Shown here: in pieces, positions 14,490 to 43,752 of the stretch | Position numbering within the stretch: position 1 is the stretch's first letter | How the letters are laid out: each line of letters opens with the position of its first letter | NCBI GenBank assembly: GCA_025055765.1 | Contig: JANWWS010000033.1 | Span: 62,001 to 126,000, forward strand | Reading direction: 5' to 3' | Length of the DNA: 64,000 nucleotides | DNA from: Leptospiraceae bacterium | Lineage (GTDB): Bacteria > Spirochaetota > Leptospiria > Turneriellales > Turneriellaceae | Notes under the pieces: model-generated | Databases searched by the model: none | What the model saw: the letters and a program-made list of their open reading frames with translations, nothing else | What the model was told of the DNA's origin: nothing | Position numbers and translations under genes: made by a program

Positions 14490-15182
14490 ATGCGCAGCTT
14501 GCGCATTTTGAACATTTGGGAAGTATTGGCATTTTGTGTTGTCTCTTTCCTCTCCCTTGTTTTTCTTACAACTCCTTGGTTTTTACCAGGAAAGCCTAAC
14601 TTTACCCTGCCAGAAATTAATTTTTACATAGGCCAACTCTTCGCTGCTTTTTTTATATCTCTTTTCGCATCAGGACTCATTAGCTTGTTTTCGCTTCTTC
14701 TCTTGCCAGATGAGCTGAGGAAAAAACTTTCGCAGTTTTTTATGTTTTGGGGGTATTGGCCTGTTATTTTATTTGCTCTTTTTTTTTCTTCGTGGCTTAG
14801 TGAGAATTATTATGTCCTCTATATTTTTTATGCACTTTTGCCTACAGGCTTACTCTTAAAAACAGCAGACCTACCAAGGGAATTGAAACAGGCAATAGTA
14901 GCCTTTGGTGGGAAACGCAAAGATATCTTCTATAGCATTCTCTCCTTTGAACGCTCTCAAGTCATATTTTTTCTCTGGCTGCACTTTTTGCGTATAAGTA
15001 GTGATTTTCTTACGTTTTTTTATTTATATTTGCGTACCAATATTTCTTTTCCCACAAATCCTACCATCTTTCTTCCACCACTAAAGGTAGTCTTGGTCCT
15101 TAATTTGTCTTTTTACCTAGTGTTTTTCTTTTTCTCTACTTTTCTTATGAAGAAAAAGGAGGATGTATTTGCCGAGCTCTAG
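14490..15182 (+). CDS. Pst-like ABC transporter permease, degenerate (PstC/PstA position 1)
   Basis: This 230-aa hydrophobic protein has five to six membrane helices. Near residue 135 it carries an EAA-like coupling loop, LPRELKQAIVAFGGKRKDIF, as in phosphate-type permeases. It is shorter than typical PstC (about 300 aa). It is recognised as Pst-like mainly because the ATPase encoded two genes later is clearly PstB-like. The start is taken at the ATG at 14490; the upstream extension of the frame runs antisense over the neighbouring gene and looks non-coding. Its 3' end overlaps the next permease gene by 20 bases. No PstS-type binding protein is encoded nearby. Confidence 0.72.
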   Translation: MRSLRILNIWEVLAFCVVSFLSLVFLTTPWFLPGKPNFTLPEINFYIGQLFAAFFISLFASGLISLFSLLLLPDELRKKLSQFFMFWGYWPVILFALFFSSWLSENYYVLYIFYALLPTGLLLKTADLPRELKQAIVAFGGKRKDIFYSILSFERSQVIFFLWLHFLRISSDFLTFFYLYLRTNISFPTNPTIFLPPLKVVLVLNLSFYLVFFFFSTFLMKKKEDVFAEL

Positions 15183-15936
15183 GCCCATCGGTGCTTACAT
15201 CCTTTTATCTTTTTCTCTGGGATTAGCTGTAGCTTTTTTCTTACCAAGTATTATCGCTCAAAAGACAGTTCCCCCCTACGAGCATTCTTTGCATTTCTTT
15301 GAAACAACATTAAGGCCCTTTTTATGGGCTTTTCCCTTAGCACTTACTTTGGGTATTGTCTTTGCTATTACTCTGAGCTACTCCCCCCGCCATGGTAAGC
15401 CCCATTATATGGTTTTATCTCTTTTCGAGTGGTTATCCCTAATGTTCCCCCATCATTTTGCCTTGGCTTTTTTGGCCATTGCCTTTGGCTTTCAGTTATA
15501 CTTGAGCTGGGATAAAGCTCTTTTTTTTACTTACTTTACGTTTCTTTTCTCCAAAACCGTGGTGGTCTTTTTGCACAGCTTTCACAAGCTAAAAAAATAT
15601 GTCTATAGGGCAGGTATCTCCTTTGGTGCGGGATACATAGAAAGCTTATTACGCCTTGTTTTACCCTGTGTTTTACCAGAAAGTTTGGCAAAAATATTGA
15701 AAAGAGCTGCCTTTCTATTATCGGATGTGTTTGCTGCTTATGTCTTGCTTATCATTGCGCAAGATAACCCTAATTTGCCTGCTGCAGCCTTGCTTTTTCA
15801 ACAAGGAGAAAATGCAAATATAATGATGAAACTAACTTTGTTTTTGGTTATTCTCTTGCCGCAATTTTTTTTATGGTCTCTAGCAGCTTTGTTGTCGTAT
15901 TGGGGCCGCCACAACCGCTATGCTTATGTACAGTGA
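15163..15936 (+). CDS. Pst-like ABC transporter permease, degenerate (position 2)
   Basis: This 257-aa protein has six hydrophobic segments. Its coupling loop around residue 148 reads VYRAGISFGAGYIESLLRLV followed by LPCVLPESL, close to the EAA loop of PstA (AxxALGASxxxTIxxVxLP). It overlaps the upstream permease gene by 20 bases and the ATPase gene by 17 bases, so the three are translated as one unit. The substrate is uncertain: Pst-type proteins import phosphate, but this set has diverged, and the ATPase lacks its catalytic glutamate. Confidence 0.75.
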   Translation: MYLPSSRPIGAYILLSFSLGLAVAFFLPSIIAQKTVPPYEHSLHFFETTLRPFLWAFPLALTLGIVFAITLSYSPRHGKPHYMVLSLFEWLSLMFPHHFALAFLAIAFGFQLYLSWDKALFFTYFTFLFSKTVVVFLHSFHKLKKYVYRAGISFGAGYIESLLRLVLPCVLPESLAKILKRAAFLLSDVFAAYVLLIIAQDNPNLPAAALLFQQGENANIMMKLTLFLVILLPQFFLWSLAALLSYWGRHNRYAYVQ

Positions 15937-16693
15937 AGAAAAAGAAAAAATCCGCTTTGAAGACTTTAGTGTTTTCTTAAATGATAGGCAAATTTTAAAT
16001 CGCATACGTTTTTCTGTTTATGAAAAGACCATCTGCTCTCTTGTAGGGCCAGAAGCTGGAGGCAAAACCTACCTTCTCTACGCCATAAATCGCTTGCTAG
16101 ACCTGGAGGAAAATTGCCGTATTCAGGGAGCCCTTTATGTTGATGGCCATAATATCTATGCTCCACGACAAAAGCCTCAAAAACTAAGACTAAAAATGGC
16201 AATGGTTTTTCAAGAACCAAATCTGTTTCCGTTTAGTATAGCAGAAAATATTAAATATGTGCTGCGCTTAAGAGGCATATCCAACAAATCTGAATTAGAA
16301 GACCGCACTATAGAAGCTCTGCGCCGCACAGGTCTATTGAGAGAGGTGCATGATATGTTAGATAAACCTGCCTCTCTCTTAGAACCTTCACAAGCCCAAA
16401 GATTATCTGTAGCAAGAGCTGTGGCATGTGATGCCGACATCTTACTATTAGATAATCCCACAAAATTACTCGATGCAGCTCAAACCCAACACCTAGAAGA
16501 ATTATTTTTGGAACTTAAAGAAAAACATACCCTTGTGCTTGTCACCCATAACTTGCGCCAGGCTGCCCGACTCTCTGACTATACGGCTTTTCTTTTTAAA
16601 GGCTCTATCATAGAATATCTGCCCACCAATAGGTTTTTTACTTCACCAGAAAAAGAAATCACCCAAAAATATATTAGTGGGCAATTTGGCTGA
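15920..16693 (+). CDS. PstB-like ABC ATPase lacking the catalytic glutamate and canonical signature
   Basis: This 257-aa nucleotide-binding protein aligns with PstB along its length, including THNLRQAARLSDYTAFLF and the C-terminal ITQKYISGQFG. The P-loop GPEAGGKT (about 39-46) keeps its lysine. The Q-loop is FQEPNLFPFS, and the switch histidine in VTHN is present. Two critical parts are altered. The ABC signature, LSGGQ in PstB, reads LEPSQ. Walker B reads LLLDNPTKLLD instead of LLMDEPTSALD, so the catalytic Glu is Asn. A homodimer would have two such sites and should hydrolyse ATP poorly. It may start at 15920 or at the ATG at 15926. Confidence 0.85.
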   Translation: MLMYSEEKEKIRFEDFSVFLNDRQILNRIRFSVYEKTICSLVGPEAGGKTYLLYAINRLLDLEENCRIQGALYVDGHNIYAPRQKPQKLRLKMAMVFQEPNLFPFSIAENIKYVLRLRGISNKSELEDRTIEALRRTGLLREVHDMLDKPASLLEPSQAQRLSVARAVACDADILLLDNPTKLLDAAQTQHLEELFLELKEKHTLVLVTHNLRQAARLSDYTAFLFKGSIIEYLPTNRFFTSPEKEITQKYISGQFG

Positions 16694-16694
16694 C

Positions 16695-17549
16695 ATGCGC
16701 ATAACTTATTATGGCACCCGAGGCTCTATTCCTGTTTCCGGGAGGGATTTTTGCGAATTTGGAGGAAACACGACCTGTGTCTTAATCGAAGAAGGCAAAA
16801 CCGTGGTCATTATCGATGCGGGAACGGGTATCCGCAACTGTGGGAATGAACTTCTACAACGCAAAATAAAGGAAATCCATATCCTCTTCACACACACTCA
16901 CTGGGACCACATACAGGGCTTCCCTTTTTTTGGACCTGCCTATAGCCAAAATCACCATATATTTATCTATGGGGAAACAAAATTTCTTCCCCGCTCTCGT
17001 TCGATATTAGACATTCCTGGAGAAAATGAGGATTGGCAAATCCAGAAAGCTCTTTCATGGCAGCAATTTTTTATGTTCTTTCCCGTACCCTTGGAACAAA
17101 TGCCGTCCAAATTAGTTTTCTTTCCTATTAAGCCGGGAGAGGCTTTTTTCGTAGATGACCTAGAGATTCTACCCATTGCCCTATACCATCCTAACGGAAG
17201 CCTGGGTTTTCGCTTTAGCAGCCGAGGCAAGGTTTTTGTTTTTTGCACGGATGTGGAGCACAATACCGAAATTTCCCAAAAGCTAAGTGATTTTGCAAAA
17301 GGAGCAGATATCTTTGCCTATGACAGCCAATATACGCCCGAAGAATACGAACAGGGACGCAAAGGCTGGGGCCATTCGACTTACAAAGAAGGCGCCCGTA
17401 TCGCTACTATTGCCGAAGTCAAAAGCTATCATATGATCCATCATGACCCATCACATAACGACGCTAAGATTTTAGAGATGGAAGAAGAAGCAAAAAAAAT
17501 ATTCCCCTCAACCTTGGCAGTGAGAGAAAAAAATATTTTTGATATTTAG
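16695..17549 (+). CDS. MBL-fold metallo-hydrolase
   Basis: This 284-aa cytoplasmic protein is a metallo-beta-lactamase-fold hydrolase of the kind beginning with YYGTRGSIPVSG and FGGNTTC. The metal-binding motif HTHWDH gives H67, H69, D71 and H72. Later ligands are plausible in FCTDVEHN and MIHHDPSHND. Related proteins include phosphodiesterases, but the substrate cannot be read from sequence. I place the start at the ATG at 16695, one base after the ATPase stop, rather than at the upstream in-frame GTG (16677). The tight spacing puts it in the ABC operon. Its last 4 bases overlap the convergent murE gene. Confidence 0.87.
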   Translation: MRITYYGTRGSIPVSGRDFCEFGGNTTCVLIEEGKTVVIIDAGTGIRNCGNELLQRKIKEIHILFTHTHWDHIQGFPFFGPAYSQNHHIFIYGETKFLPRSRSILDIPGENEDWQIQKALSWQQFFMFFPVPLEQMPSKLVFFPIKPGEAFFVDDLEILPIALYHPNGSLGFRFSSRGKVFVFCTDVEHNTEISQKLSDFAKGADIFAYDSQYTPEEYEQGRKGWGHSTYKEGARIATIAEVKSYHMIHHDPSHNDAKILEMEEEAKKIFPSTLAVREKNIFDI

Positions 17550-41198: not shown

Positions 41199-41720
41199 TT
41201 ATACGGAAGTCTTCTCCTGGGGTATGGCCCAGTGCAAGACCTTAAACCAGACCACCGCCACGATAGCTGTATAAAAAGACTCGGGCAAAAGAACCCCACC
41301 TATGACTTGGGCAGATTGACCACTATGAAAGAGAGAGACCTCTATGAACTCCAATACACCCTTGGCTATACCCGCAATAAGGTGAATAAGGAAAAGTACG
41401 AAGGCCCCTTCTTTTTGAATTTGGCCTGCTATTTTCCCCACAAAAAAGCCTATTAAAGTTTTTGGTAGGGCATGTGTCCCCAGGTAGTATTTGGCTTCCC
41501 CTGTAGGGTAGAGATAGCCTCCTATGTTCATATCTTGCAGCAAACCACCAAGGAATCCCACCCAAATACCAGCAAAGGATCCCTTGTAAAGGGCAAAATA
41601 AATTGTTAGAATTAACAAAAGATCTGGTTTAATGTGGCCAATGCGAAAAAAATCCACACTCGTTTGTAGAAAATAAGAAACAACTATGGCAATTAAAATG
41701 ACAATTTTTTCAAGTAGCAT
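41199..41720 (-). CDS. mreD: rod shape-determining protein MreD
   Basis: This 173-aa integral membrane protein has about five membrane helices. IGHIKPDLLLILTIYFALYK near residue 27 and GIWVGFLGGLLQDM near 51 are the usual MreD blocks. It belongs to the elongation complex with MreB, MreC, PBP2 and RodA. Identity rests on these features together with its place between mreC and mrdA, which is the standard order. Confidence 0.92.
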   Translation of the reverse strand: MLLEKIVILIAIVVSYFLQTSVDFFRIGHIKPDLLLILTIYFALYKGSFAGIWVGFLGGLLQDMNIGGYLYPTGEAKYYLGTHALPKTLIGFFVGKIAGQIQKEGAFVLFLIHLIAGIAKGVLEFIEVSLFHSGQSAQVIGGVLLPESFYTAIVAVVWFKVLHWAIPQEKTSV

Positions 41721-41727
41721 AATTTAA

Positions 41728-42729
41728 CTAAGGGAATTCCTTGGCTTCTGTGGCACGAAGTTTCTCATCCACTATTTTTACGTGACTTTCAGAACTGGAA
41801 GCCTGCTCATCTGCCAAGGGTGGCTCCTGCACATTTTCTGGTGTGAGAGGAGGAAACTTTAGCAAGTCTATCTCTGGTTTTTTGCGCAAGATAAAGACGA
41901 AATCGAGCCGCTTTAAATCCACTATTGGTATCACCTCCGCCCGTTGGTAACTACCAAGACGCTCAATGCGGTTACCTACCACACCGACAGGCAGCCCTCG
42001 TGGAAAGATGCCATCCCCCCCTGAAGTAATGAGCTCATCACCTGCCCTCAAGAAGACGCCGAGGGATAAATACTCGAGCACTGGATTTTCTTCCCCTGGG
42101 GAACGGCCCACAAGTAACGCCCAGTGACCCGTCTTCTTTAACATAACCCCGAGGCGGGAATAACTATCCGATATAGGAAGAATACGCGCCGAGAAACGAT
42201 TGACTTGGATAACTTTGCCTACCACACCAAAATTGAGTTTTTCTTTTTCGGTATCCGTGGCTGGATGTACTTGATAGGCTACCACAGGCATATATGGTTC
42301 AATGCCATGTTCTTTCCCCTTGTTAATTATTATAGTGCGGAACCAATTATCGGGGTCTTGGGAAATAACCTCGGCTTGCTCGACCGCTAATTGGGCGGGA
42401 GCCGATAGCTGTAGCAGCTGGCGCAGTCGCTGGTTTTCTTCTAATAGCTGAAGATAACTGACCTGTAGATTTTTTGCCTCTTTCAACTCTTCCCTTAGGA
42501 GATCCCGCTCCCTTTGTAATTCAGCGTAGGAACGATAGCTATCGAAAAATCGCCCCAAGCCCTGTCCAAGGGAGTGCATCATTGCCGTAAAAAGGTCTAA
42601 AACCTCAACGGCCTGACTTGCTGTTCTTACGAGTATATTTGACTGCCAGATGAGGCTTGAGAGACAAAAGAGAACCGTAAAGGCTAGAGAGAGCGCAGAT
42701 TTGTACTTCGCGAGAAACTCTGCCAGCAC
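41728..42729 (-). CDS. mreC: rod shape-determining protein MreC
   Basis: MreC anchors the elongation complex in the periplasm. The 333-aa protein has an N-terminal anchor (about 12-30), a coiled coil (AELQRERDLLREELKEAKNL, about 68-105), and two beta domains with the conserved blocks VISQDPDNWFRTIIINKG and VLKGDELITSGGDG-like AGDELITSGGDGIFPRGLPV. The C-terminal 50 residues are acidic and Pro-rich. It starts with GTG at 42729, immediately after the mreB stop. Confidence 0.95.
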   Translation of the reverse strand: MLAEFLAKYKSALSLAFTVLFCLSSLIWQSNILVRTASQAVEVLDLFTAMMHSLGQGLGRFFDSYRSYAELQRERDLLREELKEAKNLQVSYLQLLEENQRLRQLLQLSAPAQLAVEQAEVISQDPDNWFRTIIINKGKEHGIEPYMPVVAYQVHPATDTEKEKLNFGVVGKVIQVNRFSARILPISDSYSRLGVMLKKTGHWALLVGRSPGEENPVLEYLSLGVFLRAGDELITSGGDGIFPRGLPVGVVGNRIERLGSYQRAEVIPIVDLKRLDFVFILRKKPEIDLLKFPPLTPENVQEPPLADEQASSSESHVKIVDEKLRATEAKEFP

Positions 42730-43752
42730 CTATTTCATGCCCTTAATGAACTTTAGCTCCTCCAAATACCGACCTGCGCCCAAGGCTACACAATTAAGGG
42801 GATTTTCTGCTCTAATAACAGGAACACCTGTCTCTTTAGAGAGAAACTTATCAATACCTTTTAACAGGGATCCCCCTCCCGTAAGGACAATGCCCCTTTC
42901 TACTATGTCGGCTGCCAACTCTGGCGGAGTTTTCTCAAGGACTTGTTTGGTTCCATCTAAGATGGCATCGAGCGGCTCTTTGAGGGCCTTGCGCATTTCG
43001 ATGCTATCAATGACTAGGGTTCGTGGCAAACCAGTCATAGCATCACGGCCCCTAAGCTCATAAGTCTCTACCTTCTTGCTATCAGGATAGGCATTGCCAA
43101 TAGCAAATTTCGCTCTTTCCGCCGTAGCTTCTCCAATAACCAAATTGTAATGGCGACGCAGGTGGTTGATGATGGCTTCATCGAATTCGTCTCCTCCTAC
43201 TCGGATAGATTCCGCAATCACCATTCCGCCAAGGGAAATCACAGCAATCTCCGTCGTGCCCCCACCAATGTCAATAATCATGTTGCCTGCCGGCTCATGC
43301 ACGGGTATATTGGCCCCAATAGCCGCTGCCATGGCCTCCTCAATTAAGTAGATTTCTCTTGCCCCGGCTTGCTCCGCCGATTCCCGCACAGCCCTCCTCT
43401 CTACTTCGGTAATTCCGGAGGGTACCCCAATCACAATGCGCGGTTTAACTAAGGTAGTACGGTTGTGGACTTTATTAATAAAGTATCGTATCATTTTCTC
43501 GACAGTTTCAAAATCGGCAATAACCCCATCTTTCATGGGTCGGATGGCCACAATTTCACCTGGTGTTCGGCCTAGCATGCGCTTCGCCTCCTGACCTACG
43601 GCCACCACCTTACCTGTCCCTGCATGAACGGCAACAACCGATGGCTCGGAGAGCACAATTCCCTGACCCTTGACATAAACCAAGGTATTGGCAGTACCTA
43701 GATCTATGCCCATGTCGTTTGAGAATAACGAATGAATCCAGTCAAAGATCAT
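42730..43752 (-). CDS. mreB: cell-shape actin homologue MreB
   Basis: MreB forms membrane-associated filaments that guide wall elongation. The 340-aa protein has actin-fold ATP sites: [12 protein letters not shown] near 15-26, the [18 protein letters not shown] block near 160, and [15 protein letters not shown] near 290. [19 protein letters not shown] near 108 and [17 protein letters not shown] are diagnostic for MreB. A TAAAAT box ends 6 bases before its ATG, so its message could be leaderless (separate entry). Confidence 0.97.

Follow-up and report, generated by a model that had tools for sequence, protein, structure and literature searches.

What a Pst-type ABC transporter is retained for when the catalytic motifs of its ATPase are altered is the question raised by a block of genes in the window, by which we mean the whole 64,000-nucleotide stretch of DNA that was analysed. 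The source genome of the window (G000) is 2.51 Mb in size, is distributed over 50 contigs and is 99.4% complete. The PstC-like, PstA-like and PstB-like genes of the block are intact open reading frames, all on the forward strand and overlapping by 20 and 11 bp, and the gene for an MBL-fold hydrolase follows, starting either at ATG 16695 just past the ATPase gene or at GTG 16677 overlapping its end (Table 1). No tRNA or Rfam features were found in the window, and promoter and terminator scans gave numbers near chance. The question has a wider bearing, as how Pst informs the cell of phosphate, and whether this signalling needs transport, has long been argued on the basis of engineered mutants.

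Table 1. Features of the block, of the gene before it and of the Pit-type transporter (positions are those of the window unless a locus is named).
Feature	Position	Strand	Remarks
Zinc-ribbon membrane protein, 629 aa	12555-14444	-	No confident family
PstC-like permease, 230 aa, extremely diverged	14490..15182	+	Via alignment of five syntenic orthologues
PstA-like permease, 257 aa, extremely diverged	15163..15936	+	Via alignment of five orthologues
PstB-like ATPase, 255 aa, catalytic motifs lost	15926..16693	+	TIGR00972 256 bits, full length
Walker A GPEAGGKT	16046..16069	+	Gly and Lys kept; Ser-Gly of canonical GPSGCGKS replaced
ABC signature position, LEPSQ instead of LSGGQ	16379..16393	+	
Walker B end, Asp-Asn instead of Asp-Glu	16451..16456	+	
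PstB-type C-terminal tail	16550..16690	+	All five degenerate proteins retain 15/18 of the sites invariant in canonical PstB
MBL-fold hydrolase, HTHWDH metal motif intact	16695..17549	+	PF12706 E 4e-15
Long Pit-type protein	L121:3552-5828; also L122, L123, L124, L125	- (L121)	C-terminal region of about 250 aa

The ATPase is a full-length PstB homologue with altered motifs

Membership of PstB was judged with the TIGR00972 equivalog profile at its curated cut-off of 343.2 bits. The window ATPase scores 256.2 bits (E 2.6e-76), which is below this cut-off, and the match spans residues 9-255 of the protein and positions 2-248 of the 248 in the profile; it is therefore full length and includes the C-terminal tail, in agreement with the first-pass annotation of this DNA, which had the ATPase aligning with PstB to the end. 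It aligns through the last residue, at 44% identity, with the canonical PstB from a relative, G005.

The motifs of the window ATPase read GPEAGGKT (Walker A), VFQ (Q-loop), LEPSQ (signature), ILLLDNPTKLLD (Walker B) and VTHN (H-loop). The Walker A pattern GxxxxGK[ST] is satisfied, yet without the canonical Ser-Gly. The protein fails at LSGGQ (LEPSQ) and at the Walker B Glu (LLLDNP for LLLDEP, Glu to Asn), and both motifs were re-read exactly as first annotated. Two changes were not on the earlier list: the Tyr of the A-loop and the Ser-Gly of the P-loop are altered as well. The reading of the protein as Pst-derived but lacking the catalytic apparatus is supported. The H-loop His and the Q-loop Gln are present, and are lost in some orthologues. 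Given the changes in Walker A and the lost A-loop Tyr, the window ATPase may bind no ATP at all.

Orthologues in the family carry different lesions

The TIGR00972 search covered 61 genomes, 40 of which gave matches over the cut-off. The order is represented by 18 genomes, and 13 of the 18 belong to the family of the window. This family is probably the spirochaete group around Turneriella, a genus that NCBI assigns to Leptospiraceae (Leptospirales, Spirochaetota). Within the family, seven genomes carry a canonical PstB, five carry a degenerate PstB only and one (G012, 83% complete) carries none. The five (G000, G002, G003, G004 and G006) represent four genera, with G002 and G006 both in genus g3. 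Their best TIGR00972 matches are full-length and sub-threshold (242-302 bits), and a canonical PstB over the cut-off was found in none of them. The five blocks are syntenic, each with PstC-like, PstA-like, PstB-like and MBL genes and, in G002 and G006, with a PhoU gene between PstB and MBL. All five ATPase frames are free of internal stops.

Motifs were read in the 30 of the 40 over-cut-off PstBs for which loci were returned, the other ten being left out. Walker A, the signature, the Walker B Asp-Glu and the H-loop His are intact in all 30 (the signature is LSGGQ in 29 and FSGGQ in one). Among the degenerate proteins the signature reads LEPSQ in the window, LNLSQ in G004, LSLPE in G003 and LKPSA in both G006 and G002, and Walker B ends, in the same order, in DN, DD, DE, NE and NE. 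The Q-loop residue is Gln in the window and G004, His in G003 and Pro in G006 and G002; the H-loop residue is His in the first three proteins and Gln in the last two. Each protein therefore carries several lesions. Those common to all five are in the signature and at the A-loop Tyr, the Walker A Lys is kept throughout, and the remaining catalytic lesions vary by lineage. As to the catalytic Glu of Walker B, it is Asn in the window and Asp in G004, and G006 and G002 keep it without the Walker B Asp. Orthologues that keep both Glu and LSGGQ had been named beforehand as the sign of a locus in recent, pseudogene-like decay; the outcome was mixed, with Glu kept in three of the five (G003, G006 and G002) and LSGGQ in none.

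Eight more proteins, a partial PstB and seven that are PstB-like, were read from five other genomes of the phylum (L150-L156 and L159); LSGGQ, the Walker B Asp-Glu and the H-loop His are present in eight of eight. No further degenerate PstB of the phylum was found among these eight and the 30 proteins read above (61 genomes searched). For annotators, a PstB-like match alone is no proof of ATP-driven phosphate uptake.

The first-pass annotation had suggested that the module might pair with a canonical PstB encoded elsewhere, an idea that is not supported, as no PstB over the cut-off was found in the window genome or in the other four. In a broader form of this idea, the degenerate ATPase (PstB*) would be one half of a mixed machine completed by some other, intact ATPase of the genome. 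About 20 other ABC ATPase domains are available for this in the window genome; however, there is no PstB among them. The runner-up with TIGR00972 reaches 170 bits and has the motifs LSGGM and DEPTTGVD, unlike PstB, and lesions of signature and Walker B in one chain would be expected to spoil both composite ATP sites, even in a mixed dimer. We regard a mixed machine as highly improbable.

Diverged permeases and no PstS

Both permeases had been described as short and diverged, and they are indeed shorter than those of G005 (PstC 230 versus 294 aa, PstA 257 versus 285 aa), with no Pfam or NCBIfam model matching either. Taken singly, the PstC-like and PstA-like proteins of the window are not detectable against canonical profiles. 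The alignment of the five PstC-like orthologues matches E. coli PstC (9k3s_B, E 8.7e-6) and, by hhalign, canonical PstC (E 5.7e-16), and that of the five PstA-like orthologues matches PstA (9k3s_A, E 3e-7) and canonical PstA (E 9e-17); these PstA and PstC chains of 9k3s are the best solved-structure matches of the two alignments. The AlphaFold models of the window permeases (pLDDT 42 and 47) were too poor to use. Between genera the permeases are 22-31% identical, with almost no sequence constraint.

The searches for PstS, PhoU, PHO4, Na/Pi cotransporters and PhoR covered 18 genomes (G012 excluded). The PstS-type family PF12849 had no match in G000, G002, G004 or G006, which widens the earlier observation that PstS is missing near the locus to the whole window genome, and no binding-protein-like gene is present among the genes flanking the block in the window. 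The lone PBP of G003 was rejected as a PstS, because it scores about 130 bits with PstS and 209 bits with an orphan paralogue from G005, to which it is closer.

Fast divergence of the permeases would suit a change of substrate, and one alternative is therefore a re-targeted but working transporter, in which the permeases have switched substrate and the divergent ATPase slowly hydrolyses ATP through non-canonical motifs. The retained Walker A Lys, and the Q-loop and H-loop kept in the window and G004, are in line with this. It is opposed by the loss of the signature Gly-Gly in all five proteins, by a changed Walker B Asp or Glu in four, and by the loss of the Q-loop or H-loop residue in three. 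In addition, no binding protein of the PstS type was found in the window genome, and no gene beside the block looks like one. We consider this alternative improbable.

Phosphate supply and signalling partners

PhoU (PF01895) is absent in three of the five degenerate-Pst genomes (G000, G003 and G004) and survives in G002 and G006 only. All five carry a long PHO4 (Pit-type) phosphate transporter, with open frames of 759-892 aa. In six genomes of genus g6 that were searched, PHO4 is short (329-357 aa) and the long form was not found; G001 and G013-G017 have no PHO4 and G018 has a weak match only. The possibility that the long Pit protein ends in a PhoU-like domain was considered and rejected, as the hhalign probability of 0.4% gives it no support. 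G003 and G004 also have Na/Pi cotransporters, which were not found in G000, G002 and G006.

The best scores with the PhoR model come from other families of the order (283 bits in G016, 240 in G014 and 238 in G013). In the family of the window the scores are at most 187 bits, canonical members included, and the best in G000 is 174. No PhoR over the cut-off was found in the 18 genomes; the model is proteobacterial, and its absence is therefore suggested rather than firm. With no strong PhoR in the family, the classical Pho output is therefore either missing or unrecognised. In G016, the strongest PhoR-like match (G016:C50:8343-9320) lies on the same contig as the pst-phoU-MBL genes (MBL at L144:1501-2349).

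Selection acts on the ATPase

Between G002 and G006, dN/dS (NG86) is 0.29 for pstC, 0.17 for pstA, 0.13 for pstB and 0.07 for phoU, compared with 0.17 for MBL, 0.19 for purC and 0.21 for aat. Between G000 and G004, PstB is 61% identical, next to 62% for MurE, 58% for MBL, 30% for PstA and 25% for PstC, and the pstB differences by codon position are 37% at the first, 20% at the second and 60% at the third. The constraint on the ATPase is therefore about as tight as that on the neighbouring genes, which is not so for the permeases. These substitution patterns indicate that the degenerate ATPase is under purifying selection, which argues against the recent decay of a pseudogene-like locus that the first-pass annotation had offered as an alternative.

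A slower decay deserves separate consideration. The block could be a relic whose pump became dispensable through Pit-type supply and whose frames stay open only by translational coupling to MBL. Several observations would fit a relic: the lesions accumulate and differ by lineage, PstS was not found in four genomes and is represented in the fifth by no more than a distant relative, three genomes have lost PhoU, the permeases are nearly unrecognisable and the tree branches are very long. However, the ATPase is as conserved as MurE between G000 and G004, the dN/dS values of pstB and pstA in genus g3 are 0.13 and 0.17, the five ATPase frames contain no stops and second codon positions would not be preserved by coupling alone. 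A relic in slow decay is thus an unlikely explanation, although one with some standing.

Origin of the block and its link to MBL

In a sister family, G016 has a canonical pstC-pstA-pstB-phoU-MBL operon followed by a convergent murF-like gene, an order shared with G002 and G006; its PstS is on a contig separate from the pst operon. Judged by this synteny, the degenerate block thus derives in place from a canonical pstCAB-phoU-MBL operon. The five degenerate proteins are set apart in the PstB tree by one branch (98/96, or 92/89 when G003, which has the longest branch, is removed), and this is compatible with one loss of the motifs; long branches may attract each other, and a single loss is therefore not proven.

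The MBL gene stands downstream of the Pst-like genes in five of five orthologous loci, so that the coupling to an MBL hydrolase first seen in the window holds throughout, and it also stands behind the canonical pstB-phoU of G016. The HxHWDH motif of MBL is present in 18 of 18 cases. In G005, G001, G012 and KLAP116, MBL lies apart from pst, between aat and another gene that we take, by eye, to be argS. As MBL stands without adjacent pst in the canonical-pst family members looked at, its place in the block does not prove a functional tie. A tree of the MBL proteins does not place the five inside the group of the canonical-pst members of the family.

The C-terminal tail keeps most of its conserved sites

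A site was taken as invariant if it is conserved in 28 or more of the 30 canonical PstBs, which gave 94 sites. Those kept in every one of the five degenerate proteins are 6 of the 19 nucleotide-contact sites, 15 of the 18 C-terminal tail sites (residue 214 onward in G005 numbering) and 24 of the 57 others, the site sets having been drawn after the alignment was viewed. Nucleotide-contact sites differ from tail sites (Fisher p 0.0025), and the difference between nucleotide-contact sites and all other invariant sites pooled is not significant (p 0.13). The sites still conserved in the five, chiefly those of the PstB C-terminal tail, are direct candidates for signal-carrying surfaces.

A Pst complex that may signal without pumping

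A sensor rather than a pump, as had been proposed at first, remains the best reading, in the form of a Pst complex that no longer pumps and is retained for regulation or as a scaffold; we give this about an even chance of being correct. It is favoured by the signature being lost in all five proteins and intact in all 30 canonical ones, by the lack of a canonical PstB, by the syntenic canonical operon of G016, by purifying selection, by the retained tail sites, by the long Pit in five of five genomes and by the E. coli PstB mutants described below. It is opposed by the absence of PhoU in three of the five, by the lack of a strong PhoR, by permeases that are nearly unconstrained, by the pooled comparison of sites (p 0.13), by the chance that no ATP is bound and by the MBL genes that stand apart from pst. 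With PhoU missing from three genomes and no clear PhoR, a sensor of the classical Pho kind becomes less likely.

In one branch of the family, PstS and the ATPase signature with other catalytic residues have been lost and the permeases have diverged fast; the genes remain open, and a long Pit-type transporter is carried instead. The remaining PstC*A*B* complex would still assemble in the membrane without being able to form the ATP sandwich dimer, and would therefore rest in an open, inward-facing and non-pumping state. The conserved PstB tail and surfaces would then dock a cytosolic partner, the complex being kept as a receptor or scaffold. In genus g3 this partner would be PhoU, and elsewhere the operon-linked MBL hydrolase is the first candidate. 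Should the P-loop still bind some nucleotide, the complex may report on energy or phosphate status. A stronger claim, which we hold tentatively and at somewhat below even, is that this is a natural and selectively maintained Pst complex with both composite ATP sites dead and PstS gone, serving purely as a receptor or scaffold in the membrane and working with PhoU in one genus and with a new partner, perhaps MBL, in the others. If true, signalling by Pst would have been separated naturally from pumping by Pst in a clade that keeps PstCAB.

Compared with PstSCAB-PhoU (PstB TIGR00972; chains 9k3s, 9k3x and 9k3y), the degenerate loci share the C-A-B order, full-length PstB homology with its C-terminal tail, permeases traceable to PstA and PstC and, in two genomes, PhoU. 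They differ in having no PstS, no LSGGQ, an altered Walker B, Q-loop or H-loop, diverged permeases and a PstB score under the equivalog cut-off. According to PMC5775613, E. coli PstB loses phosphate uptake with either of two changes, Q160K in the signature or E179Q in Walker B, and Q160K signals phosphate sufficiency whereas E179Q signals starvation. It is therefore possible in principle to signal without pumping. A 1988 paper in the reference list of PMC5775613 states, by its title, that PstA Arg-220 is needed for transport and not for repression. The mutants resemble the degenerate proteins in having the signature or catalytic Glu changed and in being transport-dead, which is predicted here; they are laboratory point mutants with PstS, PhoU and PhoR, whereas the proteins described here are natural, carry multiple lesions and are kept over several genera. 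The Gln equivalent to E. coli Q160 is retained in the window protein (LEPSQ).

FtsEX is similar in that an ABC fold passes a signal instead of moving a substrate; FtsE is reported to have ATPase activity, whereas both composite sites of the degenerate PstB should be dead. SUR1 is an ABC protein that works without transport. No paper on phosphate transport or pstB in Turneriella was found, and none on a degenerate PstB among the matches listed, by title and start of abstract.

Neighbouring genes

The block had been suggested as possibly one five-gene system with the divergent zinc-ribbon gene (Table 1). This gene proved to be neither conserved nor linked, a homologue being found in one of 17 other genomes (G004, 24% identity) and there on another contig, and it was rejected as a member of the system. 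In G004, two more overlapping genes follow MBL (L035:4266-6130, reverse strand), one of them DUF4350; they are absent from this position in the window. In G003, an ORF of 1425 residues (L036:94-4371, forward strand), putatively TPR/CHAT-like by eye, runs straight into the PstC-like gene with an overlap of 8 bp. Further along the window, at 41199-43752 on the reverse strand, a row of ORFs resembles by eye a putative mreB, mreC and mreD cell-shape cluster.
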